DNA of 64,000 nucleotides, from the NCBI RefSeq assembly GCF_000226095.1, contig NC_016472.1, positions 4,464,001 through 4,528,000 of the forward strand, in the 5' to 3' direction. This document shows positions 22,001 to 43,494 of this stretch, piece after piece. The position numbers and the translations under genes were made by a program. Numbering within the stretch: the first letter of the stretch is position 1; each line of letters begins with the position of its first letter. This stretch comes from Thermothelomyces thermophilus ATCC 42464 (lineage: Eukaryota > Ascomycota > Sordariomycetes > Sordariales > Chaetomiaceae). The notes under the pieces were generated by a model. The model saw only the letters and a list, made by a program, of their open reading frames with translations, was not told the DNA's origin and did not search any database.

Positions 22001-22825
22001 GCTAGGACGGCCCTATAGAAAGCCCTAGGGGAAGACCTCCTCCCTATAGGTCTACTAAAGGCCTATAGGCAGCTACTTTATCGGATATTAGCTATACTAG
22101 CCTTAGAGAGCCTATAGCTTAGCTATTTCCCAGCCTAGTTTAAAAGGGCTAAGACAATGGTCCTCTATAAGCCTAGTAAACCCCTATAGGCCTACTTTAC
22201 CCTAGGTAGCTATAGGCCTATAATATTCTTACTAATAGTAGGTAAGGTACTAGAGGCTATAGTTACCTAGAAGGTAATAGCTATTATAGAGGCCTATAGG
22301 CTTCTCCTAGCTAAATAGATAGATAACTAGGAATATAGGTCTATAGAACTAGCTATTTAGCTTATTACGGCTTAGGTTTAAAAGGCTTAGAGGTATAAGG
22401 TAGCTACCTCCCTCCTATAGCTTAATATATTAAAAGCTTTCGATACTATTAACTATATCTAGCTATTAGCTACTTTAAAGAGCTGAGGCTTCCTTAAATA
22501 GTTAATAGTCTAGGTTAGGGAGTGGCTATAGGATAGGGTAGCTATCCTTTACATTAATAGCTAGGAAACAGAGAATATAATAATAAGGGCTAGGGTCCTA
22601 TAAAGGTTACCCCTCTCCCTTATATTATTTATTCCCTATATTACCTCTCTCTACTAGGCCATTTGCTAGGCTAGCCCTATAATTAGCTTAATAGACTTTA
22701 CTAATAATACTAACCTTCTAGCCTTTAGAAAGGCTAAAGAGGCCTATAATAGTTAGCTATAGAGGGCCTAGAAGGCCTACCTCTAGTAGGTAAGGACCTA
22801 GGGTATAGCTTTTACCCTAGAAAAG
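19015..22825 (+). mobile_element. Full-length LINE (copy 4), segment 1 of 3
   Basis: The 5' part of a complete plus-strand Tad1-like LINE split by two LTR retrotransposons; it resumes at 30,420 and 38,713. The 5' CG-rich segment is at 19,060-19,245. ORF1 remnants follow. An AP-endonuclease-type motif appears near 21,025-21,070 (IDNFNLYY, where LGDFNLHH is expected). The RT box near 22,680-22,730 reads DFTNNTNLLAF. All frames are stopped by TAG/TAA. The three segments together total about 5.2 kb, the same as copy 2, so the element was full length before interruption. Confidence 0.85.
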
Positions 22826-23272
22826 TGTCACGGATAAGCACATAGACGGCCTGACAGGCTGCAGCCAGGACACGGGACATTCCGACAGCCAATCACTTGA
22901 CGGACCAATTAGAAGATTATCACCGCCAAGACCAAGGTCTTCACTGGTGATAATAACATGTCACCGTCGACGACACGGAGTCACGGAGTAAAAGGAGAAA
23001 TGGTACTAGTGATAACTATTAAAGAGGGACAGACAATTATATATATATAGCTAGCTAGTCACTTGTTATAGTAGACTCTAGGAGTTTACTAGTAGTAACA
23101 ATCATAATTATAGTACTTATACCAAGTATTGCTAATTACTATGAGAGATAACTCTAGTGTTGTTATAAACCCTTTAGCTTTACCGAATCCCTTAGATAAC
23201 CTGCCTACTTGTCCTACTTAATCTACCTCTATCTAGACCCTTTTAGAAGCAGTCTAAGTTAGGTTCGTTACA
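22826..23272 (+). repeat. 5' LTR of chromovirus 1
   Basis: 447 bp beginning TGTCACGG and ending TTCGTTACA (TG..CA). It matches 29,973-30,419 over its full length. The differences I read at the start are all C-to-T or G-to-A (for example GCACATAG versus GCATATAG), so divergence reflects RIP rather than age. Confidence 0.95.
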
Positions 23273-23299
23273 CGTTATTACTACTCTCTTTATTCTATT

Positions 23300-25560
23300 A
23301 TAGTTTAGAATGGAGGTGACTTCGACCTCGATATCGACATGGCTACTAACGTTACGGCCGAACAGCTGCTCGCTTAGCTTGGTCAACTCTAGTAGCGGAT
23401 CTAGGAGTTAGACTAGAGAGATAAGGCTGCTTAAGCTCGAATCAAGGAACTCGAGAATCGTGAAAAGTATTTACAGAAGTTAGTTAACGAGGCTTACGCC
23501 AAAATCGAGGCACTCGAGGGCGCCAAAGCGAAGCGTATCAAGATCGAACTACCTAGTAAATACGGAGGAACCAAGGAGGATCTTGTAGGATTCCTAACAA
23601 ACCTCTGATCCTACTTCTAGCTTAATGACGATAAGTTTCCGGATAATAAAGCCAAAGTCCTCTATATAGCTACGAGACTAGAGGGCAAGGCACTTAGATG
23701 GTTCGAGCCTATATGGAACGACTATCTCACTAAGGAAGATAAAGATAAACGAGACGTGTTTATATAGGCAGTCTTCCGATCTTATGACCGTTTCGAAGAA
23801 GAGCTTTGGAAAGTTTTTGGCGACAAAGATAAGAAGATTTATATATAAGAAAGACTTGCTAATCTCTAATAGACTAAGTTAGTAGCCTCTTATACTATAT
23901 AATTTAGATAGGATATACTTAAGTCTTAGCTTAATGATAAGGCATTAATATAATTGTTTTATAATAGCCTAAAGGAAAAAGTTAAGGACAAGCTATATAA
24001 GTATAATTAGCCTAAAACCTTAGATAAATATATTATATAGGCTATTAGGATCGATAATCGACTCTATATACAAGAGTAGTAGAAATGAGGTTAAATGAAT
24101 AGAACTATAGTTAAGGCTAATAACAAGAAAAAACGAGCATACGTCAGTACCTCGTATAGGATGTACCTCGGAGCTATAGATATAGATATAGCGTAGAAGC
24201 AAGACTAGAAAAAGACGACCAAAGACAAGTCTAATGTTACCTACTATAACTACGGAAAGAAAGGGCACTATAAGCAAGAATGCTAGAGCCCGAAGAAAGA
24301 ATAGAAACTAGCCCCTAGAAAGGAAATTACGGCTATCGACGAAACTACTAAGGATGTTATCGAAGTAGTGGCTACGAGCTACAAAGACAGGGACAGTGAT
24401 ACGGATAGTCTCGGACATGACGGCAATGGTAAAGACGAATAAGCACCGTACTCCGAACTGGTCACTATAGACCTAGAGATAGGTCTTGCCGAATAGGATA
24501 TAGTAGGAGAATATGTACCACTAATTTCGATTCTCCTAGCCTTAAGTTAGTAGGGTTTTATAGTTATATAGAGGTAGGATAGATTATAGATAACTGATAC
24601 CTAAGGAATCGAAAGACCTAGACCTAATGTTCTATTCCTCTAGGAACGAATCAAATGGTACTATAATAAAGTTTTCTAACTTAATATAGAACTACGCGAA
24701 CAGGATAGGCACTTGACTCGACTTGCCTAGTAGAGCAATAAGATAAAGGACAAGATAAGGGAACTCTAATATATCGTAGAAGCCCTTAAAGGAGAATAGC
24801 CTATAATATATAATAGGCCTAATAGCTATACTAAGTATCTTAACGATTAGTAACTTAGTAACGACGTATAGAACCTAGAATACTAGTTTATACGTGCGAA
24901 CCGTGGAAAAGACAAGCGTATGTAGGAAAGCTACTAGAAGAAACATTCCTATATTAGCACTAGAGTACCTATAGCCTATATATAGTAGGAAGGATTCGGG
25001 AAAGAATTCTAATACCTCCTAGGCGACGTTACACGACTATACCCTTAACACGAGGTATATACGCAAGTGCCCTAGTTCTAGTGTATAGTATATAAATGCC
25101 GATATTACTTCCGTGACAAATTCGAAAATAATCACTAGCCGACCTAACAAGGAAATAAGGATAGAAGCTTACGCCCTATAGAAAGGGTCTATAATACAGG
25201 AAATAGAGCAGCCGAATTGCTCTAGAAGATCGAAGCCTGTAATCTAGAAGGCATTACGATAGTTCCAAGACGAGCCTGGCCTAGGTACTACGGAACCGGA
25301 CGAGACATATAGGACTTGTGCTAGAGCAATGATTGCCTCTATTACGCGGACGAAAAGAAATTGCGAATTCGGGAGCTTTAGACAAAGCTATGGTATATAT
25401 AACGGAAAGTAGAACAGACCTAATGGTAGGAAGCTATAAGCACTTAATGGCTTACGGAAATGAGTATAATTGACGAAGCTACTATTAGCTAAATAACTGA
25501 AGAGGTTAGCACTAACCTAGGAAACAGGTTAGGGCCCTTTAAGGGGCCTAGAAACCATTA
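23300..25560 (+). pseudogene. Gag remnant of chromovirus 1
   Basis: Broken frame starting at a mutated ATG (ATA). It has an N-terminal coiled-coil region (repeated E/K/L near 23,400-23,520), a retrotransposon Gag core around 23,560-24,060 and a CCHC knuckle at 24,244-24,285 read as YYNYGKKGHYKQEC, where two Cys have become Tyr. A further Cys/His-containing stretch near 25,084-25,134 (CIVYKCRYYFRDKFENNH) lies in the long spacer before the protease. The second and third chromoviruses have the same layout. Confidence 0.8.
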
Positions 25561-25724
25561 ACGCCCGTATAACGGTAAGTGGTAGCGTAGTATAGGAGGA
25601 ACTAGTGTAAGAGACCACTATATCGAGACCTCCTAGTAGAAATATAGGAAATTGCTATAATCTTTGGATAACGATAGTAGGACAAGCGACTATAGATAAT
25701 AGCGTAATAGAAACAGCACGAAAT

Positions 25725-28700
25725 GCTTATACTAGTAGATAGTAGAGCAGAGATAAACCTAATTTCGCCGACGCTTGTAAATTAGCTATAGATACCTTAG
25801 AGAATAAAGCGGAAGTATAGCATAGTCAAAGGGCCATTTCCAATATAATAGGTATATAGGGAGACCGAACTAATCGATATTACTATAGCAAGGAAGACTA
25901 TAGTAGTCGTATTTAGCATTATAGATATAGGTAACGACAAAGATATAATATTAGGGTTACCATAGTATAAAGATTATAACCCGGACATTAGCTAAAAGAA
26001 TAGTAGCTACCTATAACCCTAAATAGAGTTATATTTGACTAGTAAGATAGGGAGTACGTAAGGATCGTAAGCAGACGATGCTCAGAAAAAGGTATATCCT
26101 ACGGATCTACCGCAAGAGACAGACAGTGGCAGGCAGACCACTACAGACTCTAGAAGAGGCGGTATAACGATATCGATATCACGACAGGAGGAACGAGCTA
26201 AATTGCCGATAGCTATTCTCTCTATTGACGAATATAGAGCACTATAATAGGAGTAGTAGGTTGAGATAGGAGAAATCGCTAGCATCGCTATAGACGGAAC
26301 TAAGTTTGTATACTATTAGAAAACCGAGAGACAAGACAAGACTAGGGAAGTACCAAGGGAATACGAAGGACACCTAGCATTCGAACCGAAGTATCTAGAA
26401 GGATTACTAGAACACGGCCTATAGGATTACGAGATCAAGCTTAAGGAAGGGGCACGACTAAAGTTCTTTAAGATTTACTATACGAGCTAGATATAGAACG
26501 AAGAACTTAAGCGATATTTAGAGGAGAACCTTCGAAGAGGATATATCTACCTATCGATATCATTAGTAGGCTACCTAATCCTATTTGTACCTAAGAAAGA
26601 TAGAAAGCTATAGTTATACGTCGACTATTAGTAACTTAATAAATAGACTATAAAAAATCGATACCTGTTACTACTAATCTTATAGCTCTAAGATCAGTTA
26701 GCAGGAGCCTAATATTTTATATATCTTGACTTACTATCGGCCTATAACTATATATAGATCAAAGAAGGCGACAAGTAGAAAACGGCCTTTAGGACACCCT
26801 ATAGCCATTACAAGTACCTCGTCATGCCATTCGGACTTATAAACACGCTAGTAACGTTCTAAGCCCTAATTAATTAAGCTATCCGACCCTTTCTCGACAA
26901 ATTTACGGTATATTATCTCGACGATATACTTATCTTCTCTAAGACGATAGACGAATACTAGAAGCACGTAGAAGTAGTACTAGACGTGTTACATATGTAT
27001 AAGCTATTAGTTAACAAGGAAAAGAGCAAATTCTATATTAGGAAGATAGTCTTTTTAGGATATAAGATATCCCTAGGATAAATCTAGATAGAACCTTCAA
27101 AGGTTAAAGCTATCAAGAATTGGCTATGACTAACGTCAGTTATAGAAGTACAAAGCTTTATCAGATTTACAAACTTTTACTAAATGTTTATTAGGAACTT
27201 TAGAGCGATCGTATAACCTTTGTACGAACTTACTAAGAAGAACGCTAAATTCTAATGGGAAGAGTAATACAAGTAAACATTTATATAGATCTGTAACGCT
27301 ATTACTAAAGATCTAGTACTAGTATTACTAGACCCTAAGAAGCCATTTGAGGTGGAAATAGACGCTTTAGACTACGCCATCGGAGGACAATTAGGATAAC
27401 GAGACGAACAAGGGAAGCTATATCCTATAGCCTTCTTTTCAAAGAAGCTCGATAGACTACGTCTTAATTATCTAATTTATAATAAGGAACTACTTATAAT
27501 TATCGAAGCTTTCAAGGAATGGCGACTATATCTTAGTAGTACGATTGAATTAGTATAAGTATATATAGATTACAAGAACCTACAATACTTTATAATGATA
27601 AAGGAACTTAACAGACAATAAATACAATAGGTAGAATTCCTCACAGAATTTAACTTCAAGATCCGCTACAAGAAAGGCAAAGAAAACGTATAAGCAGACA
27701 TTTTAAGTCGACAAATAGATCATACGAAAGGACGAACAGGAATAATACTACCGTTATTCAAGGAACAAATAGACGGAACACTATATTACGAAATGTAGAC
27801 ACCTATAGAAGATGATCTACTTAACTTATTCCTAGAATGCTACACAATCTTTCGAGAAGAAAGGATTAACGAGGCATAGTATCAAGTAGCACCCGGACTA
27901 GTAGTACCTGACGGAGTAGAAGAGAAAGATAGGAAACTCTAGTACCGAGGTAAAGTGTATATCCATGACAAAGACTAATAGCTGCAAATGATTTAAGAAC
28001 TTTATAAGTCAAAACTCGGAGGATACAAGGGAGTTACGAAGACTGTCGTACAAGTCAAGAGACACTACGACTTTCTATAGTTAACGGCACGAGTTAAGGA
28101 AGTTATATAGAGCTATAATATCTATAATCAAAGCAAAACGGCACGATATAAGCCGTATAGGCTACTTTAGCCATTGTTAATAGCTGACAAACTATAGAGT
28201 TTAGTTACGATAGACTTTATTATAAAGCTGTTAGAATCTAAGGACACGGCTATAAGAGTAATCTACGATAGTATTCTTACTATAGTAGATCGCCTGACTA
28301 AATAGGTATACTTCTTTCCCTATAAGGAGTCCTAGATAGCTAAATAGCTAGCAGATGTGATCTATCGGCAAGTTACATTAGTATATGCTTAGCCGTAAGA
28401 ATAGATTACTAATAGAGATACTAAGTTCGTATCGAAGTTCTAGCAAGCGTTAATACGACGATTAGGCGTCAATAGTAAACTATTAATAGCATATTACCTA
28501 TAGACTAACGGACAAACGGAACGATTAAACTAAGTTATTAAGCAATACCTCTGCTCTTACGTCAATTACTAGTAAGACAACTAGATCATGCTATTACTAA
28601 TAGTATAACTCGCCTATAATATAACGCCAACAGAAACGACTAAAGTTACACCATTCTTCGCGAACTACAGATATAAAGCAGACCTTAGGCAAGGACCAGA

Positions 28701-29250
28701 GGTTATAGTGCCAAGAGTAGTAGTCAAAGTAGAACAGATATACGTACTATATAAGAAGCTTAAAAAGGAACTCGAGTTTATCAGGACCAGAATAAAGAAC
28801 CATTACGACAAACACAGGCTCGAGGGACCTTGCCTAGAGAGGGGAGATAAAGTCTACCTAATTATACGAAACCTACGAACCAAACGACTAAGCACAAAGC
28901 TAGACTTTAAGAAGGTTAGACCCTTTATTATCAAAGAACAAATTTCGACATCTAACTACCGACTATCGTTACCATTATCTATATAACTACAGACAGATGT
29001 TTTTTATATTTCACTCCTCGAACTAGTACCGAAAAACGCTAAGGTTACTACATATATCAAAGTAGAAGACAAAGAAGAAGAATAGGACATTAAAGAAATT
29101 CTAGATTTACGTATTATTAATAGAGAACTATAGGACCTGGTCAAATAGCTTAATTTTAGACTAGAAGATAACTTATAGGAACTAATTAAGAATCTAAATT
29201 GCCCTAAGAAACTAGAACAGTTCTACTAGTAGAATCTAGATTGACTAAAG
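25725..29250 (+). pseudogene. Pol remnant of chromovirus 1 (PR-RT-RNaseH-INT-chromodomain)
   Basis: Protease motif LVDSRAEINLISP (from DSG) is near 25,733. RT active site YLDDILIFS is intact near 26,911-26,937. RNase H runs from about 27,350 (FEVEIDALDYAIGGQLG). Integrase has an HHCC-like region near 28,000-28,160 and the terminal DDE context NGQTERLN near 28,508. Its C-terminal domain is the best preserved part (GDKVYLIIRNLRTKRLS, 28,708-28,986). A chromodomain (IKEILDLRIINREL..LVK, then LEDN..ELIKNLNCPKK) follows at about 29,085-29,230, identifying a chromovirus. Many RIP stops interrupt the frame; no product is expected. Confidence 0.88.
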
Positions 29251-29846
29251 GGAAACCTAGGATAGAACCAAAGACGACGCCCTAGTCAATAGCATTAGCG
29301 GCATCATTAATCTCTGACAAGGGTATAGTAGGCGCCTCTTGCCGCTCTTGCCGTTTAACCGCCTCTAACTCGTCTAAGGTCGACAGACCATGCGCCACCA
29401 TATTAGCACCTTTCTCTACCAAAAACTCCTTCTGCTAACGAAGACGCCGGAGCTACGTAAGCTTTTTAGACAACTCGTGCTAGGCTTCTTCTAGACGGCA
29501 TTAGGATTTATCTAGCTCAAGTTTGGTACGATATTTAGTATCCTTAATATGATGTTACTCCTAGAGAATACGATCTATTAGAAAGAACATCAGAAATCAC
29601 ACTTAAAAAAAAAAAAAAAGAGAAGGAGACGAGCTTATAAGAAGAAAGCAGGATGCTAGAGCTATCGTAAGAACGACCTCGACAAATATAGACCTCGTAA
29701 CGCTTTATACGTGTAATCATTTTACAGACAAGGCCTTAAGACGCGTACCAAGAATAAGGTATAATGACAAAACCGTTCTTGGCGATGTTCTAAGCAAGGG
29801 AAGCACGGTAATGTGCAGAATACGACTTCCGTTTCTCTACCGGCAT
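29186..29846 (-). pseudogene. Antisense ORF of chromovirus 1 with Zn2Cys6-spaced motif
   Basis: Opposite to gag-pol, between pol and the PPT. ATG at 29,846 is followed exactly 30 codons later by six positions (29,756-29,667) spaced as C-x2-C-x6-C-x8-C-x2-C-x6-C. The third is still Cys; the other five are TAT/TAC Tyr, each one RIP transition from Cys. A probable intron (29,638-29,575, 64 nt) has its donor GT mutated to AT. The second exon is charged and coiled-coil-like and retains FLVEKGANMVAHGLSTLDEL. It ends at TAA 29,186-29,188, overlapping the chromodomain-coding end of pol. Original length was about 198 residues. A regulator or DNA-binding role is inferred from the spacing only. Confidence 0.75.
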
Positions 29847-29972
29847 TTTGTCAACATGGCGACCACAACGTAGAAATAGGAAGAATGCAGTACTCACAAG
29901 CGAAGGGTATTAGCACTATTTAAAACGGCCTAAGAGGGCTTTCAGGTCGAAAGCCTTAAAGGAGGGGCATCG

Positions 29973-30419
29973 TGTCACGGATAAGCATATAGACGGCCTG
30001 ATAGGCTGTAGCCAGGACATAGGACATTCCGACAGCTAATCACTTGACGGACCAATTAGAAGATTATTACCACCAAGACCAAGGTCTTCACTAGTGATAA
30101 TAACATGTCACTATCGACGACGTGGAGTTACGGAGTGAAAGGAGAAATGGTACTAGTGATAACTATTAAAGAGGGACAGACAATTATATATATATAGCTA
30201 GCTAGTTACTTGTTATGGTGGACTCTAGGAGTTCACCAGTGGTAATAATCACAATTATAGTACTTATACTAAGTATTGCTGATTACTATAAGAGATAACT
30301 CTAGTGTTGTTGTAAACCCTTTGGCTTTACCGAATCCCTTAGACGACCTGCCTACTTGTCCTGCTTAATCTACCTCTGTCTGGACCCTTTTAGAAGCAGT
30401 CTGAGTTAGGTTCGTTATA
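29973..30419 (+). repeat. 3' LTR of chromovirus 1
   Basis: 447 bp, TGTCACGG to TTCGTTATA (terminal CA mutated to TA), directly followed by the target duplication AAAAG. It is preceded by the purine-rich PPT and CATCG. Confidence 0.95.
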
Positions 30420-31220
30420 AAAAGTATAAACTTATCTACTTTAATAGGGGCTAGAAATAGTAGTTATAACTACTAGAGCTCTTATAGCCTAGAAGGGGTA
30501 CTATTACTATAGCCCCTTTAAACTTAGCTAGATTCCTAGGGGTCTAGCTAGACTAGAAGCTATAATAGGGCCCTTACTATATAAAGGTAGCTAGGAAGCT
30601 AGAAACCTAGGAGTTTACCTTAACTAGGCTTATTATAAAGACTTAGAGCCCTAGCCTCCTATAGGCCTATAAAGTCTATATTAAGTATATCTATAGTACC
30701 CTAGCTTATAAGGCCTTAAACGTTTATAAGCCTACTAAGCTAGGGGGTAAGCTAGAAGGCCTTACTAAGGAGCTATCAAAGGCCTAATATAAGGCGCTTT
30801 AAATAATTACTAGGGCCTATAAGGCTACTCCTATCTAGTACCTTAAAATAGAAGCCTAGGTACTACCCCTTAACCTCTATCTTAATAAGAGGCTAGCTAA
30901 CTTTAAAGCTAAACTTAACTAGTTACTCTTATAAACTAGAGTAGGCCTAGGGGCCTCTTAGGTCCCTATAAAGGCTCTTATCTAATAGGCCTATAATAGG
31001 CTTAGCTAGAGGTTCCGGAAGAGAAGGACTAGGGCAAGGGGCTAAGAGCTAAAGCCTATAGCCCTAGAGATAGTAAGGTTAATAGCCTAGTAATAGGTTT
31101 AGAAAGGCTATAAAGGGGGTTAACCCCCTTTATAGACCTTATAAAGAAGATTATAGGCTATAGAACTAGCTATACTAGCTAGCTAGAGCAACCGTTAAAG
31201 GGCTAACTAAGCTAATAGGA
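30420..31220 (+). mobile_element. LINE copy 4, segment 2 of 3
   Basis: 801 bp of the RT C-terminal and downstream coding region of the plus-strand LINE, colinear with segment 1 (ends 22,825) and segment 3 (starts 38,713). It carries the conserved C-terminal stretch (ITRAYKATPI, PLDLYLNKR). It is bordered by AAAAG on the left and TAGGA on the right, the duplications of the two flanking LTR elements. Confidence 0.9.
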
Positions 31221-31639
31221 TGTGACAAACCCAACTCAGACTTCTTCTAAAAGGGTCCAGACGGAGGTAGGTTAAGCGTAACGAGCGGGCAGGTTGTCTA
31301 AGGGATTCGGTAAAGCCAAAGGGTTTATAACAACACTCAGAGTTATCTCTCACAGTAATCAGCAATACTTAGTATAAATACTATAATTGTAATTATTACC
31401 ACTGGTAAACTCCTAGAGTCCACTATAACAAGTGACTATCTATATGTATATATAATCCTAGTGATCACTCCTAATCACGGTGATCGTGAGTGATCGCATA
31501 GTGGTGATCACCCTGATCGCTAGTAAGCGTAGTGATCACTGTACTTCCTATGTTGTAATTAGTCCTTCTATTCCTTCGGCTTGATTGGCCCGTTTGTGCC
31601 GGTAGCCTAGGCAGCATCTATATATATATTTCCGTGATA
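31221..31639 (-). repeat. 3' LTR of chromovirus 2
   Basis: 419 bp, the same length as 38,294-38,712. Its outer end is TGTGACAAAC and its inner end TCCGTGATA. It contains a cluster of GATC motifs at 31,462-31,540. Confidence 0.93.
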
Positions 31640-31769
31640 CGATGCCCTCCCTCCGAGGCTTTCGACCCGAAAGCCCTCTTTTTAGGCTATCTTAAATAGT
31701 GCCAATATCCCTTGCATTACTTGTACGTGTTTTTCTCCTTAGTCCTTATTACCCTTCGTGCTGTCAATT

Positions 31770-32380
31770 ATACCATCTAACGCGCATAGATCCCTAGCGT
31801 CTATTCGTCGTGAGCGTTTAGCTCAGTTTATTTCCGATCACGGGTTTGTAGTAATGGCGTGTTCCTATTACGTAGAGCACAACCGAGTGTACAAGATAAT
31901 TGAAAAATCTCGTCGCTACAAGGCTTGCGTATGTTAGGGTCGTGCTTATAATGGTTCTAGCGTTCTAGTTTCTTCTTGTAAGTTCCTGTTTTCTTGCGAG
32001 GGCACGTCTCTGATCGTAACGCAGTAGATCGTATTATACGCGAGTAACGTCGTTTGAAGGCTAAAGAGAAAGAGGTTAAAGCCTTGCTATAGGAATATTA
32101 ATGTAAAGCTTCTAAGGCATTAGCCTGTCTAACTCGGGTTTATAAATAACGAGAGTTCCTAGTAGAGAAGGGGGCAGATATAGTTATATAGGGTTTATTA
32201 AATCTAGACGAATTAGAGGTAGTAGAATAGTAAGAATTAGGGGCTATTATGTAACTTAACGGTAGCGTTAACGTTATTAACTAGGGCGCTATTTTCGGTT
32301 CTATCCTAGGTTTGCCTTTAGCCGATCTAGGTTCTGCCGATAGAACTGTTCCAGTTTCTTAGGGCAGTTTAAGTTCTTAA
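31770..32380 (+). pseudogene. Antisense ORF of chromovirus 2 with Zn2Cys6-spaced motif
   Basis: Homologous to the antisense ORF of chromovirus 1. The start codon is ATA (ATG mutated) at 31,770. Exactly 30 codons later, 31,860-31,949 holds C-x2-C-x6-C-x8-C-x2-C-x6-C spacing; the first and fifth positions are Cys and the others TAC/TAT Tyr. Exon 1 (31,770-31,977) ends at an intact GTAAGT donor, in the same codon phase as chromovirus 1. A 47-nt intron ends in GCAG at 32,024. Exon 2 (32,025-32,380) has a basic/acidic coiled-coil-like part, the motif FLVEKGADIVI then LNLDELEVVE, and a C-terminus reading IFGSILGLPLADLGSAD. About 187 codons originally. The last roughly 60 bp overlap the pol 3' end on the other strand. 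Confidence 0.75.
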
Positions 32381-35300
32381 CTAATTCCTATAAGTTATCT
32401 TCTAGTCTAAAATCAAGCTATTTGACCAGGTACCATAGTTCCCTATTAATAATATATAAATCTAGAATTTCTTCGACGTCCTATTCTTCTTCCTTATCTT
32501 TTACTTCGATATACGTAGCAACCTTGGCATTTTTCGGTACTGGTTCGAGAAGCAAAATATGAAAAATATCCGTCTATAGTTATATAGATAATAGTAATAA
32601 TAGTTAGTAGTTAGATATCGAAATTCATTCTTTGATAATAAAAGGTCCGACCTTCTTAAAGTCTAGCTTTATACTTAGTCGTTTGGTTTATAGGTTTCGT
32701 GTAATTAGGTAGACTTTGTCTCCCCTCTCTAGGCAAGGTCCCTCGAGCCTATATTTGTTATAGTAGTTCTTTATTCTGGTTTTGACAAACTCGAGTTCCT
32801 TTTTAAGCTTCTTATATAGTGTATACATCTGTTCTACTTTGACTGCTGCTCTTGGTACTGTGACCTCTAGTCCTTGCCTAAGGTCTACTTTATATCTGTA
32901 GTTCGCGAAGAACGGTATGACTTTGGTCGTTTCCGTTAGCGTCGTATTATAAACAAGTTATACTATTAGTAATAGTATAACCTAGTTGTCTTACTAGTAA
33001 TTGACGTAAGAACGGAGATACTGCTTGATAACTTGGTTTAGTCGCTCTGTTTGTCTATTAGTCTATAGGTGGTATACTATTAATAGCTTGCTATTAACGC
33101 CCAATCGTTGTATTAACGCTTGCCAGAACTTTAATATAAACTTGGTATCTCTGTTAGTGATCTATTTTTACGGCCAAGCATACACTGATATAACTTGCTA
33201 ATAGATCACGTCTACTAACTGTTCCGCTATCTAGGACTCCTTATAGGGAAAGAAATATACTTACTTAGTCAGGCGATCTACTATAGTAAGAATACTATCG
33301 TAGGTTACTCCTATAGCTATATCCTTAGATTCTAGCAGCTTCGTAATAAAGTCTATTATAACCGAGCTCTATAGTTTGTCAGCTATTAGCAGTGGCTAAA
33401 GTAGCCTATACGGCTTATATCGTGCCGTTTTGCTTCGGTTGCAGATGTCGCAGTTCCGTACGACTTCCTTAACTTGTACCGTTAACTATAGAAAGTCATA
33501 GTGTTTCTTGACTTATACGACAGTCTTCGTAACTCCTTTGTATCCTCCGAGTTTCGACTTATAGAGTTCTCGAATCATCTATAGCTATTGATCCTAGTTA
33601 TAGATATATGCTTTACCTCGGTACTAAAGTTTCCTATCTCTTTCTTTTACTCCATTAGGTACTACTGGTCCGGGTGCTGCTTAATACTATACCTTGTTAA
33701 TCCTTTCCTCTCGAAAGATTATATAGTATTCGAGGAACGAGTTAAGTAGATCGTCTTCTACAGGTGTCTATATTTTGTAATGTAGCGTTCCGTCTATTTA
33801 TTCCTTAAATAACGGTAATGTTGTTCCTATTTGTCCTTTTGTATAATCCGTTTGTCAGCTTAAAATGTCTGCTCGTACGTTTTCTTTGCCCTTCTTATAG
33901 CAGATCTCGAAGTTAAATTCCACGAGGAATTCTGCCTATCGTATTTATCGTCTGTTAAGCTCTTTTGTCGTCGTAAAGTATTATAGGTTCTTATAATCCG
34001 TATATACTTATATTAATTTAATCATACTACTAAGGTATAGTTGTTATTCCTTAAAAGCTTCGACAATTACAAGTAGTTCCTTATTATAGATTAGATAATT
34101 AAGACATAGTCTATTAAGCTTCTTTAAAAAGAAGGCTATAAGATATAGCTTTCCTTATCTATCTCGTTATCCTAATTGTCCTCCGATAGCGTAGTCTGAA
34201 GCATCCGTTTCTACCTCAAATGGCTTCTTAGGGTCTGGCAGTACTAGTACTAGATCTTTAGTAATGGCGTCACAGATCTACATAAATGCTTGCTCATGTC
34301 ACTCTTCCCATTGGAATTTAGCATTCTTCTTGGTAAGTTTATGTAAAGGTCGTACGATCGCTCTAAAGTTCCTGATAAACATTTGGTAGAAGTTCGTAAA
34401 TCTGATGAAACTTTGTACTTCTATAACTGACGTCGGTTGTGGCCAATTCTTAATAACTTTAACCTTTGAAGGTTCTATTCGAATTTGTCTTAGGGATATT
34501 TTATATCCTAGAAATACCATTTCTCTAACGTAGAATTCGCTCTTTTCCTTGTTAACCAATAGTTTATATATATATAACATGTCTAATACTGCTTTTATAT
34601 ACTTCCGGTGTTCGTCTATCGTCTTAGAGAAGATAAGTATATCGTCAAGATAATATACCGTAAATTTGTCGAGAAAGGGTCAGATAGCTTGATCAATCAG
34701 GGCTTAGAACATTGCTAGCGTGTTTATAAGTCTAAATGGCATGACGAGGTACTTGTAGTAGCTATAGGGTATCCTAAAGGCTGTTTTCTACTCGTTACCT
34801 TCTTTAATCTATATATAGTTATAGGCTAATAGTAAGTCAAGATACGTAAAATGTTAGGCTCTTACTAACTAATCTCGGAGCCGTGAGATTAGTGGTAATA
34901 GGTATCGATTTTTCACGGTCTGTTCGTTAAGTTACTAATAATTAACGTATAATTGTAGCTTTCTATCTTTCTTAGGTATAAATAGGATTAGGTAGCCTAC
35001 TAGCAATGTCAATAGGTAGATATATCCTCTTTAAAGGTTCTCTTCTAAATATTACTTAAGTTCTTCATTCTATATCTAGCTTATATAGTAAATCTTGAAG
35101 AACTTTAGTTATACTCCTTCCTTAAGCTTGATCTCGTAATCCTATAGGCTGTATTCTAGTAATCCTTCTAGATGTTTCGGTTCGAATGCTAGGTGTCCTT
35201 CGTATTCCTTCGGTACTTCCCTAGTCTTGTCTCATCTCTCGGTTTTCTAATAGTATACAAACTTGGTTCCGTCTATAGCGATACTAGCGATTTCTCCTGT

Positions 35301-38266
35301 CTCAACCTACTACTCCAATTACAGTGCTCCGCATTCGTCAACGGAGAGAACAGCTATTAGCGATTTAGCTTGTTCCTCCTATTATAATATCGATATCGTT
35401 ATACCGCCTCTTCTAGAGTCTATAATAGTCTGCCTACCACTATCCATCCCTTGCGGTAGATCCGTAGGATATGCCTTTCTTTAAGCATTGTCTGCTCGCG
35501 ATCCTTATACGCTCCCTATCTTGCTAGTCGAATATAACTCTGTTTAGGGTTATAGGTAGCCACTATTCTTCTAGCTAATGTCTAGGTCGTAATCTTCATA
35601 CTATAGTAACCCTAATATTATATCTTTGTCGTTACCTATATCTACGATACTAAATATAACTACTATAATCTTTCTTACTATAGTGATATCGATTAGTTTG
35701 GTCTCCCTATATACCTATTATATTAGGAATGGCCCTTTGACTATGCTATACTTTTGCTTTATTCTCTAGGGTATCCGTAGCTAATTTATAAGCGTCGGCG
35801 AAATCAGGTTCATCTCTGCTCTACTATCTACTAGTATAAGCATTTCGTACTATTTCTATTGTGCTATTATCTATAGTTGCTTATCTTGCCGCCGTCGTCT
35901 AAAGATTACGGCGATTTCCTATACTTCTGCTAGGAGGTCTCGATATAGTGGTCTCTTACGCTAGTCCCTCCTATACTACGCTACTACTCGCCGCTATACA
36001 GGCGTTAATGGTTTCTAGGCCCCTTAAAGGGCCCTAACCTGTTTCCTAGGTCAGTGCTAACCTCTTTGGTTATTTGGCTAATAGCAGCTTCGTCAATCGT
36101 ACTTATTTCTATAAGCTATTAAGTGCTTATAGCTTCCTACTATTAGGTCTGTTCTACTTTCTATCGTATATACTATAGCTTTATCTAAAGCTCCCGAATT
36201 CGTAATTTCTTTTTATCCGCGTAATAAAGGCAATCATTACTCTAGCACGAGTCCTATATATCTCGTCCCGTTCCGTAGTACCTAGGCCAGGCTTGTCTTA
36301 GAACTATTATAATACTTTCTAGGTTACGGGCTTTGATCTTCTAGAGCAATTCGGCTGCTCTGTTTCCTACATCATAGACCCATTCCACAGGGCGTAAGCT
36401 TCCGTTCTCATTTCCTTATTAGGTCGGCTAGTGATTGTTTTCGAATTTGTCACAGAAGTAGTATCGGCATTTGTATACTATACACTAGAACTAGGGCACT
36501 TGTGTATATACCTCGTATCGAGGGTATAGTCATATAGTGTTGCCTAGGAGGTATTAGAATTCTTTTCTAAATCCTTCCTACTATATATAGATTGTAAGTA
36601 CTCTAGTACTAATATAGGAGTATTTCTTCTAGTAGCTTTCCTACGTATGCTTGTCTTTCCTATAGTTTACTCGTATAAACTAGTATTCTAGGTTCTATAC
36701 GTCATTACTAAGTTACTAATCGTTAAGGTACTTAGTATAGCTATTAGGCCTATTATATATTACAGGCTATTCTCCTTTAATAGCTTCTATAATACGTTAG
36801 AGTTCCCTCATTTCGTCCTTTATCTTATTGCTCTACTAGGCAAGTCGAGTCAAGCGCCTATCCTATTTACGTAGTTCTATATTAAGTCGAAAAACTTTAT
36901 TACGGTACTATTCAATTCGTTCCTAAAGGAATAGAGCATTAGGTCCAGGTCTTTCGATTCCTTAGGTATCGGTTATCTACAATCTATCCTACCTCTACGT
37001 AACTATAAAACCCTATTACCTTAAGGCTAAGAGAATCGAAACTAGCGGTATATATTCTCCTACCATATCCCATTTGGCAAGACCTATCTCTAGGTCCACA
37101 GTGACCAGTTTGGAGTACGGTGCTTGTTCGTCTTTACCATTGCCGTCGTGTCCGAGACTATCTATATCACTACCCTTGTCTTCGTAGCTCGTAGCCGCTA
37201 CTTCGATAACGTCCTTGGTAGTTTCGTCGATAGCCGTAATTTCCTTTCCAGGGGCTAGTTTCTATTCTTTCTTTAGGCTTTGGCATTCTTGCTTATAGTG
37301 CCCTTTCTTTCTATAGTTATAGTAGGTAACATTAGACTTGTCTTTAGTCGTCTTCTTCTAGTCCTGCTTCTATGCTATATCTATATCTATAGCTCTAGGG
37401 TACGTCCTATATAAGGTACTAACGTATGTTTGCTTTTTCTTATTGTTAGCCTTAACTATAGTTCTGTTTATTCGACCTCGTTTCTATTACTCTTATATAT
37501 AGAGTTAATTATCGATTCTAATAGCCTATATGATATATTTGTCTAGAGTCTTAGGCCGATTATACTTATATAGCTTGTCCTTGACTTTTTCCTTTAAGCC
37601 GTTATAGAATAATTATATTAATGCCTTGTCGTTAAGCTAAGACTTAAGTATATCCTATCTAAACTATATAGTATAGGAGGCTACTAACTTAGTCTATCGG
37701 AGATTGGCGAGTCTTTCTTACATATAAATCTTCTTGTCTTTATCGCTAAAAACTTTCTAAAGCTCTTCTTTAAAACGGTTATAAGATTAGAAGACTACCT
37801 ATATAAATATATCTCAGTCGTCTTCGTCTTCCTTAGTAAGATAGTCATTCTATATAGGCTTAAACTATCTAAGTACCTTGCCCTCTAGTCTTATAGCTAT
37901 ATAGAGGACTTTGGCTTTGTTATCTAGGAACTTATCATCATTAAGCCAGAAGTAGGATCGGAGGTTTGTTAGGAATCTTACAAGATCCTCTTTAGTTCCT
38001 CTGTATTTGCTAGATAGTTTGATCTTGATACGCTTCGCTTTAGCACCCTCGAGTGCCTCGATTTTAGTATAGGCCTCGTTAACCAACTTCTATAAGTACT
38101 TTTCGCGGTTCTCGAGTTCCTTAATTTAAGCTTAAGTAGTCTTATCTCTCTAGTCTAACTCCTAGATCTACTACTAGAGTTAACTAAGCTAAGCAAGCAG
38201 CTATTCGGCCATAACGTTAATAGCCATATTGATATCGAGGTCGAAGTTACCTCTATTCTGAACCAT
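32360..38266 (-). pseudogene. Gag-Pol remnant of chromovirus 2
   Basis: Same domain order as chromovirus 1. The Gag ATG at 38,266 survives, and a 74-codon Gag core (KIEALEGAKAKRIKIKL, then LVRFLTNLRSYFWLND) is open at 38,086-37,865. The RT box VYYLDDILIFS is intact near 34,632-34,664. The RT C-terminal/RNase H connection is open at 34,580-34,299 (VFLGYKISLRQIRIEPSK). The integrase C-terminal region lies near 32,600-32,880. The chromodomain is near 32,380-32,510. Numerous RIP stops lie elsewhere. Confidence 0.85.
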
Positions 38267-38293
38267 GACAGAACAAAGGGAGTGGTAACAACG

Positions 38294-38712
38294 TATAACA
38301 AACCTAACTCAGACTTCTTCTAAAAGGGTCCAGACGGAGGTAGGTTAAGCGTGACGAGTAGGCAGGTCGTCTAAGGGATTCGGTAAAGCCAAAGGGTTTA
38401 CAACAACACTCAGAGTTATCTCTCACAGTAATTAGCAATGCTTAGTATAAGTACTGTGATTGTGATTGTTACCACTGGTAAACTCCCAGAGTCTACTATA
38501 ACGAGTGACTATCTACATGTATATATAATCCTAGTGATCACTCCTGATCACGGTGATCGTGAGTGATCGCATGGTGGTGATCACCCTGATCGCTGGTGAG
38601 CGTAGTGATCACTGTACTTCCCATGTTGTAATTGGTCCTTCCGTTCCTTCGGCTTGATTGGCCCGTTTGTGCCGGTGGCCCAGGCGGCATCTGCATGCAT
38701 ATTTCCGTGACA
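38294..38712 (-). repeat. 5' LTR of chromovirus 2
   Basis: 419 bp. In element orientation it starts TGTCACGGAAATATG (right edge) and its last bases, at 38,294, read TATAACAAACC on the plus strand, where TGTAACAAACC is expected. It is less RIP-mutated than the other LTR of the same element. It carries the GATC array at 38,535-38,613. Confidence 0.93.
38535..38613. promoter_or_regulatory. GATC-motif array in LTR U3
   Basis: Seven TGATC motifs within about 80 bp, several as palindromic TGATCA, with start-to-start spacings 10, 9, 10, 14, 9 and 19 bp. A mutated counterpart lies at 31,462-31,540 and in the third chromovirus LTR near 59,720-59,790. It is absent from chromovirus 1. Its position in U3 suggests a transcription-factor binding cluster. 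Confidence 0.5.
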
Positions 38713-41499: not shown

Positions 41500-43494
41500 T
41501 TAATGGTAAGGTATTAGAAGCTATCATTACCTAGAAGGTAATAGATATTATAGAGGCCTAGTAGCTTCTCCTAGCCAAAAAGATAGGTAACTATAAGTAT
41601 AGGTCTGTCTATAGAGCTAGCTAACCGGCTAGTTACGGCCTAGGTATAGGAGGCTTAGAGGTATACGGTAGCGGCCTCCCTTCTATAGCTTAATATCTTA
41701 AGGGTATTTAATACTATGAACTATACCTAGCTACTAGCTACTTTATAGGGGTATAGCTTCCTAAAGTAGGTAATAGTCTAGGTTAGAAAGTAGCTATAAG
41801 ATAGAGTAGCTATCTTTTACTTTAATAGCTAGGAAATAGAAGATATAATAATAAGGGATAGAGTCCTATAGGGGTTACCCTCCTCCCTTATATTATTTAT
41901 CCTCTATATATCTCCCTCTACTAGGCTATTTAATAGGCCTACCCTATAGTTAGTTAAGTAGGCTTTATTAATAATATTAACTTACTAGCCTTTAGAATGA
42001 CTAAGGGGGCCTATAATAGCTAGCTATAGAGGGTATAAGAGGCCTATTTATACTAGGTAAGGACCTATAATATAGCTTTTACCTTAGAAAAGAGTAAGCT
42101 TATCTACTTTAATAGGGGCTAGAAATAGTAATTATAATTATTAGAGCTTTTATATCCTAAGGAGGATATTACTATTATAGCCCCTTTAAAGTTAGCTAGA
42201 TTCTTAGGGGTCTAGCTCGATTAGAGGCTATAATAGGGCCCTTATTATATAAAGGTAGCTAAAATGCTAGGAACCTAGGAGTTTACCTTAATTAGGCGTA
42301 TAATAAAGACCTAGGGTCTAGGCCTTTTATAGGCCTATAAGGTCTATATTAAGTATATCTATAATGTCTTAGCTTATAAGGCCTTAAACCTCCATAATCC
42401 TATTAAGTTAGGGGGCAAGCTAGAAGGCCTTATCAGAAAGCGATTAAAGGCTTAAAATAGGGCCCTTTAAGTAGTAACTAGGGCCTATATAGCTACCTTT
42501 ATCTAATGCCTTAAAATAGAAGCCCAGGTACTATCTCTTAATCTTTATCTTAATAAGAGGCTAGCTAAGTTTAAGGCTAAGCTTAACTAGCTACTTCTAT
42601 AGCCTAGGATAGGCCTAGGGACCCCCTAGGTCCTAGTAAGGACCTTTATCTAATAGGCTTATAATAGGCTAAGCTAGAGATTCTAGAAGAGGAGGGCTAG
42701 GGTAAAGAGCTAGGGATTAAAACCTATAACAGAGGTAGTAAGAATAATAGTCTAATAGTAGGTCTAGGAGAGCTATAAAGGTAGCCTACCCCTTCTATAG
42801 GCCTTATAGAGGAGATTATAGACTATAGAGATAGCTATAGTAGCTAGTTAGAGTAACTACTAGAGGGCTAACTAGGCTAACAAGAGGATATAATATATAT
42901 TAGATATAGACCCCTTATATCTAGTTCTTATAGGGAAAGGACTATAAAGGTACTAGGGCTTAATAAAGGCCTAGAGCTCCCTACTAATATAAGGCTATAT
43001 AGGGGCTATTAGCCTCTATAACTTCCGATTTAAGGTTTAAGTCCTAGGGGTTAGTACCCCTTACTATACCTATAGCTAGGGGAAGGAGATTATAGAGTAG
43101 CTAGTTATATAGTGCCTAAACCTACTAAGAAGTTAAACGTAGGAATCCTAGGAAATTTGGTTATAAAGGGACCTAGACCTTGTTTTATAGGGTATAGGGG
43201 CCTATAAGCATTATTTAGTAAGGAGGGTTCTATATTAGCTAATAAACCTAGTAAGGCTCCTGGAGTATTGCCTTATAAAGAGGCTAGACTAGGAGGTAAG
43301 GTCTCTATAGGGCTATTCTAGCCACCTCTCCTTTTTCTTAGAGTATATTAGTATTTCGGATTAGGTATAGAGTATTAAAGGTAAGATAGAGGTTTTTATC
43401 TTACCTATTAGGTAGTTTCCTATATATATAACTCGGGAGGCTCTAGTATACTTATTAGTATAGTGGTATAGGATTAATAATAATAATAATAATA
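41500..43494 (+). mobile_element. LINE 3' half (copy 6)
   Basis: About 2 kb from within the RT domain to the (TAA)n tail at about 43,475-43,494, plus strand, 5'-truncated. It is uninterrupted where copy 4 carries the two chromoviruses, so it shows the empty sites (GAAAAGAGTAAGCTTATC near 42,090 and AACAAGAGGATATAATAT near 42,880). Confidence 0.85.

Follow-up and report, generated by a model that had tools for sequence, protein, structure and literature searches.

Two chromoviruses lie in a 64,000-nucleotide stretch of the Thermothelomyces thermophilus ATCC 42464 genome (contig NC_016472.1, positions 4,464,001 to 4,528,000; hereafter the window, from whose first nucleotide coordinates are counted), both altered by repeat-induced point mutation (RIP) and both carrying a decayed reading frame opposite to gag-pol. 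Was this antisense frame ever a gene, and what might its product have done? A first-pass annotation of the window had described an open reading frame (ORF) near the 3′ long terminal repeat (LTR), ancestrally coding, with six positions spaced as in the Gal4-type DNA-binding clusters of fungi. We find that it is a two-exon gene, situated in both elements between pol and the 3′ LTR, and that its product is Zn2Cys6-like.

Copy 1, of family F1, occupies 22,826-30,419 on the plus strand (from its LTR ends and repeat family D5), with LTRs at 22,826-23,272 (5′) and 29,973-30,419 (3′). Copy 2, of family F2, occupies 31,221-38,712 on the minus strand (from repeats and its LTR start); its 3′ LTR spans 31,221-31,639 and the other LTR begins at about 38,294, with the outer end estimated from a repeat offset. 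The two are inverted relative to each other and 87% identical over 6155 nt. Within their antisense genes, the six positions fall exactly where they had been placed, at 29,756-29,667 (minus) in copy 1 and 31,860-31,949 (plus) in copy 2, with the spacing C-x2-C-x6-C-x8-C-x2-C-x6-C. The codons read Tyr, Tyr, Cys, Tyr, Tyr, Tyr in copy 1 and Cys, Tyr, Tyr, Tyr, Cys, Tyr in copy 2; as had been reported, Cys is kept only at position 3 in the former and at positions 1 and 5 in the latter.

The genome (38,744,216 bases in 7 contigs) was searched for further copies. For the copy 2 region, scoring of 40 among 707 candidates gave 30 loci, one of which, L001, is copy 2 itself; copy 1, copy 2 and L002-L030 were aligned over 41 exon 1 codons. 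All six positions are Cys or Tyr in all 31 rows, Cys is seen at least once at each (Cys/Tyr counts for positions 1 to 6: 21/10, 5/26, 9/22, 1/30, 7/24 and 1/30), and none of the other columns contains Cys and Tyr only. The general Zn2Cys6 spacing arises in 252 of 4,496,388 placements of six random positions among 41 (5.6e-5). Given that copies 1 and 2 belong to different families, their agreement is an agreement between families.

The antisense gene of copy 1 runs from 29,846 to 29,186 on the minus strand, as defined by its ATG, donor position and exon 2 frame: exon 1 covers 29,846-29,639 and, beyond the intron, exon 2 covers approximately 29,577-29,186, its frame running from 29,575 to a stop at 29,186. 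In copy 2 the gene occupies 31,770-32,380 on the plus strand, with exon 1 at 31,770-31,977, an intron at 31,978-32,024 and exon 2 at 32,025-32,380, as established from the frame and the alignment of further copies; the same frame, with zero net indel, is found in 29 of these. Exon 2 measures 354 nt in all 30 family F2 rows; that of copy 1 has 36 nt more. The donor is GT at 31,978 in copy 2 and is mutated to AT at 29,638 in copy 1. A start lies exactly 30 codons upstream of the cluster in both copies, as annotated, although it is ATG only in copy 1 (29,846, minus) and ATA in copy 2 (31,770). The antisense location near the 3′ LTR likewise stands, but the frame is not open: besides the short intron, exon 1 holds two in-frame stops in copy 1 and one in copy 2, so that 'ORF' was loose wording. 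None of the Cys cluster falls within pol; the overlap with pol comprises 41 aligned codons of exon 2.

Unmutated copies of the gene exist elsewhere in the genome. Of 444 candidates, 150 were scored and 30 loci returned, among them the 18 loci L036-L053. Their exon 1 is identical, stop-free and retains six Cys in 18/18, and exon 2 is identical in 17/18, the eighteenth differing without protein change; a single protein sequence is thus common to all. These loci represent a recent burst that has so far escaped RIP, while most other genome copies are RIP-hit. A run of T in their antisense intron varies from 19 to 33 among these otherwise near-identical copies. The public 196-residue protein P0002, a database entry of RNA or gene-prediction origin, is the exact spliced product: 69 residues from exon 1, a split codon and 126 residues from exon 2.

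A protein search with the natural exon letters (X at stops) matched 22 proteins, and a second with intact relatives as queries, in which 8000 candidates were scored, matched 51 with E no higher than 0.01; searches of viral_contigs and genome_contigs found no relatives. Named sources are T. thermophilus, Chaetomium globosum, Canariomyces notabilis, Corynascus similis, Achaetomium macrosporum and Apiosordaria backusii; taxonomy look-ups place Canariomyces and Apiosordaria in Sordariales and T. thermophilus in the Chaetomiaceae of the same order. The relatives are annotated mainly as hypothetical proteins, and in UniRef the Chaetomium protein P0023 bears a name starting 'Zn(2)-C6 fungal-type do'. 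In an alignment of 13 chosen proteins (A5), 12 cover the cluster, P0024 beginning within it; nine of the 12 have all six Cys, and the remaining three show four departures, all to Tyr.

Altogether five families carry the antisense gene at the same place relative to pol: F1 (copy 1, L036-L053), F2 (copy 2, L002-L030), F3 (L061, L063, L065 and, by similarity, L067, L068, L071), F4 (L062, L064) and F5 (L066, L069, L070). The pol frame of L036 contains a chromodomain (PF00385 Chromo, E 2.2e-13) and Integrase_H2C2; the elements are chromoviruses, i.e. Ty3/gypsy elements with a chromodomain at the end of pol. The antisense intron is in phase 1 in F1, F2, F3 and F4. Both F4 copies read have a stop beside Cys 2 and x8 rather than x6 between Cys 2 and Cys 3. 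A basic stretch, KPRKR, stands ahead of Cys 3 in F4, in contrast to other families; together with the loop spacing, it may possibly reflect another geometry of DNA contact.

The antisense frame is under purifying selection among diverged families. The ratio of nonsynonymous to synonymous differences (pN/pS), computed between little-mutated copies with bootstrap intervals, is 0.50 (0.40-0.61) over 154 codons for F1-F3, 0.64 (0.51-0.80) over 137 for F1-F4 and 0.59 (0.48-0.71) over 143 for F3-F4, values that the protein-guided alignment biases somewhat downward and in which pS, at 0.75-0.78, is saturated. Exon 2 was trimmed to 85 codons (F1) or 90 (F3) to exclude the pol overlap, as measured in F1 only; with exon 1 only, the F1-F4 interval extends to 0.96. 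Transversions, used since RIP does not make them, were also counted by codon position, giving 45/28/68 for F1-F3 (third position p 0.0002), 53/36/58 for F1-F4 (p 0.07) and 50/33/57 for F3-F4 (p 0.04). Between F1 and the F2 rows the counts are 29/19/44 outside the pol overlap (p 0.003) and 1/1/1 within its 41 codons. The annotated ancestral coding is supported by unmutated six-Cys copies, by P0002 as their spliced product and by purifying selection on the frame; the first and last are the two points on which the annotation had let that claim depend.

How closely the protein resembles a Gal4-type factor is a separate matter. The usual spacing of Zn(II)2Cys6 factors, C-x2-C-x6-C-x(5-12)-C-x2-C-x(6-8)-C, accommodates the x8 and x6 found here and is present in nine of the 12 chosen relatives and in F1, F3 and F5, though not in F4. 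By structure prediction, the protein opens with a helix at its N terminus, continues into the Zn2Cys6-like cluster and then forms a long helix, about 66 residues in length (67-132; blocks of pLDDT, the model's per-residue confidence, mostly >90). In the models, short helices follow Cys 1 and Cys 4, as in Zn(II)2Cys6 factors, and the long helix comes next. The cluster would be expected to bind zinc, and the long helix may pair two molecules into a dimer. Structure searches with AlphaFold models of the relatives bring up Gal4-class zinc clusters, albeit at weak scores: zinc-cluster proteins account for 9 of 12 VIA rows, 12 of 17 Foldseek rows and 3 of 3 further VIA rows, with Pho7, HAP1, Gal4, PUT3, Leu3 and PPR1 among the PDB matches. 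Foldseek with the whole P0002 model returned four rows with no zinc cluster; PDB sequence searches likewise gave none, mostly coiled-coil rows, and an NCBIfam scan gave nothing above cut-off.

A hidden Markov model search with Pfam Zn_clus (PF00172), which the annotation had proposed as a check, did not bear out the class: the cut-off of 21 bits was never reached among the 20 proteins scanned, seven of which were listed, several of them without the cluster, and the best score was 18.1 bits (P0027, E 0.0028). Nor is the basic loop expected between Cys 2 and Cys 3 present: that loop holds 0-2 Lys or Arg in 11 relatives versus 4-5 in six host Zn_clus proteins. The mean number of Lys plus Arg is 1.18 in loop 1 and 2.91 in loop 2 for the relatives (P0030, P0032 and P0036, with fewer than six Cys, being left out), and 4.67 and 1.00, respectively, for the host proteins. 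It is thus the second half of the cluster that carries the basic loop, not the first; P0036, whose loop 2 is MLHGHS with no basic residue, runs contrary to this rule. Profile alignment with hhalign against the six host proteins gave 66% over 15 columns, out of register, with the first half aligned on the second. In 30 runs with every column shuffled the value never rose above 5.9%, while with the Cys columns kept, 66% was surpassed in 1 of 30; the profile similarity therefore rests mostly on the cysteines. The Gal4-type reading is partly supported, by spacing and predicted fold, and we call the protein Zn2Cys6-like rather than a member of the Zn(II)2Cys6 class because its Pfam score is below cut-off and its basic loop lies in the other half.

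What the gene may do is suggested by the way the elements diverge. DNA identity in pol is 94.6% for F1-F3 (1470 nt), 94.8% for F1-F4 (938 nt) and 93.4% for F3-F4 (922 nt). Across the six pairs of F1, F3, F4 and F5, each with 100 shuffles, identity is 90-96% in pol, 52-58% in the antisense gene (shuffle maxima 54-55), 72-94% in the polypurine tract (PPT) block, 51-69% in U3 (shuffle maxima 54-58) and 92-96% in R-U5. In two pairs the antisense gene is more similar than any of the 100 shuffles (F1-F3, 57%; F3-F5, 58%); for U3 this holds in three (F1-F3, 56%; F3-F5, 69%; F4-F5, 56%). By these identities and shuffles, two segments diverge fast, the antisense gene and U3: both are near random identity beside a conserved pol, PPT block and R-U5, and the conserved block with its hairpin and PPT separates one from the other. 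This block, at approximately 2052-2137 (sense) of L036, also in L061, L062 and L066, and at approximately 29,900-29,972 and 31,640-31,700 of the window, has the antisense start on one side and the 3′ LTR on the other, and holds an inverted repeat (GGCTTTCGGGTCGAAAGCC in several copies) adjoining the PPT. Between families the block is 72-94% identical, and its flanks do not align.

U3 itself contains repeated sites. F3 has three occurrences of GGATCAC-N10-GTGATC at 34-nt intervals and with differing spacers, and none of 1000 dinucleotide shuffles reaches the six GATCAC/GTGATC sites observed. The alternating sites recur in three further, RIP-hit F3 copies: L067 keeps the full six, L068 has one in mutated form and L071 has two. 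F2 has five GATCAC-type 6-mers (0/1000 shuffles), the GATC-type sites in the 3′ LTR of copy 2 lying at 31,461-31,539 (minus, counted from the LTR start at 31,639). F1, tested on copy L036, has three GGTGATAA (0/1000 shuffles at k=8); in the 5′ LTR of copy 1 the sites fall within 22,917-23,015 (plus), as TTATCACC at 22,917, GGTGATAA at 22,946 and AGTGATAA at 23,008. The repeat test covered five families at three word lengths, uncorrected; with k=6/7/8, the fraction of 1000 shuffles whose count reached the observed maximum is 0.244/0.027/0 for F1, 0/0.024/0.002 for F2 (a RIP-hit copy), 0/0/0 for F3, 0.328/0.922/1 for F4 (not significant) and 0.237/0.028/0.364 for F5 (marginal). Because of an apparent relationship among the U3 regions of F2, F3 and F5, the families cannot be counted as five independent cases. 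Ahead of the repeated sites, a CCAATCA or CCAATC motif, which we take to be a possible host HAP/CBC site, occurs in U3 of F1, F2, F3, F4 and F5. Dimeric zinc-cluster proteins bind inverted half-sites at fixed spacing; the inverted U3 sites resemble this binding logic, although the half-site here is GTGATC-like and not CGG, a difference from Zn(II)2Cys6 factors additional to the swapped loop and the Pfam score.

The reading we favour, and judge to be just on the likely side, is that the element encodes a sequence-specific regulator of its own LTR promoter, probably a repressor or autoregulator, that binds the repeated inverted sites in U3. Starting at a promoter that would lie near the 3′ LTR, antisense transcription would yield the spliced mRNA; the protein, as a dimer, would bind the U3 dyads and thereby tune sense transcription. 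Regulation of the own LTR fits both the divergence pattern and the U3 dyads, as far as comparison of sequences can suggest. The segment identities weaken the link between gene and U3; they come from six pairs of four families, over which the two segments may or may not diverge as a pair. Repression is our guess by analogy with HBZ of human T-cell leukemia virus type 1 (HTLV-1), which, according to the excerpt of PMC10186651, is produced from spliced and unspliced antisense RNA of the 3′ LTR and is a nuclear, transcription-factor-type protein that lowers LTR-driven HTLV-1 expression. HBZ is a basic leucine zipper protein of a vertebrate retrovirus, whereas the domain here is Zn2Cys6-like, and we claim no sequence relation.

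The strongest competitor, which we regard as unlikely though worth serious attention, leaves the element's own LTR unbound by the protein: a nuclear accessory factor, it would be directed at chromatin of the host, at silencing or at the choice of integration site, or would partner a host zinc-cluster factor, with the U3 sites bound by host factors. This competitor would account for the weak or absent basic loop 1 of DNA-contacting zinc clusters, the half-sites that are not CGG and the CCAAT motif, presumably of host type, in U3 of all five families; a purely host-directed protein, however, does not predict a hypervariable gene and U3 beside conserved neighbours. It is quite improbable that the coding is secondary and that antisense transcription itself, through double-stranded RNA or interference, was selected: such transcription in plant elements is discussed as regulatory by itself in the excerpt of PMC7264820, but here the protein is under purifying selection and its six Cys are conserved across genera. 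Finally, we give practically no credence to chance, i.e. RIP of a non-coding antisense frame that mimics a zinc cluster, since, even though both window copies are mutated and not open, it is opposed by the Cys/Tyr-only columns of the 31 rows, the spacing odds, the unmutated six-Cys copies and relatives, the selection on the frame and the identity with P0002, and was rejected.

Copy 1 is itself inserted in an older repeat, with flanks at 22,339-22,828 and 30,420-30,719 and a counterpart at 41,607-42,387 (repeat families D7, D8 and D10). The uninterrupted counterpart runs through approximately 42,090, so that the nested insertion and an empty-site relative occur in the same window.

An antisense gene in a fungal chromovirus is by itself a known arrangement. 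Zhao et al. reportedly described, in 2011 (Virology 417:248), the antisense gene brtn in Boty-like retrotransposons of Botrytis cinerea. The title of that work is cited in PMC8365987, and excerpts of two further papers mention a Boty-like element with a CHROMO domain and brtn-106 (PMC4227169) and a Monilinia transcript similar to BRTN (PMC5987419). From these excerpts, brtn resembles the present gene as an additional antisense gene in a fungal chromodomain Ty3/gypsy element; they mention no zinc cluster for BRTN, and the likeness drawn here is one of arrangement. The TRP28 antisense ORFs of plant Retand elements, as presented in the excerpt of PMC11963269, occupy, in nearly every copy, the interval from pol to the 3′ LTR and are predicted to bind DNA; they share this position and a predicted DNA-binding character with the gene described here and differ in belonging to a plant non-chromovirus lineage and in their domain (PF04195), with no splicing or U3 pairing reported in that excerpt. 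With brtn and the Retand ORFs on record, the arrangement was therefore already known. In the literature searched (titles and abstract openings, with subscription papers mostly outside), no paper reported a fungal LTR element whose antisense gene has a zinc cluster, and neither a zinc-cluster-like domain with a swapped basic loop nor divergence shared with U3 turned up; the terms 'antisense' and 'zinc' are absent from PMC3248453.

Gag-pol is considered sufficient for LTR retrotransposition in the excerpt of PMC7264820. The finding accounts for at least 15 T. thermophilus proteins annotated as hypothetical. If the favoured regulator reading is true, fungal retrotransposons would have independently evolved HBZ-like self-regulation, and the protein and its U3 sites would provide a concrete regulator-operator pair to test and bear on how elements restrain or distinguish one another in a RIP genome. 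More tentatively, and with clearly less confidence than in own-LTR regulation, Sordariales chromoviruses may carry a matched pair: an antisense dimeric zinc-cluster-like regulator that contacts DNA through a loop now in the cluster's second half, together with an array of dyads at fixed spacing in U3. The pair would evolve jointly, apart from pol and R-U5, and would give each lineage self-recognition and a copy-number switch, an immunity-like system among retrotransposons.

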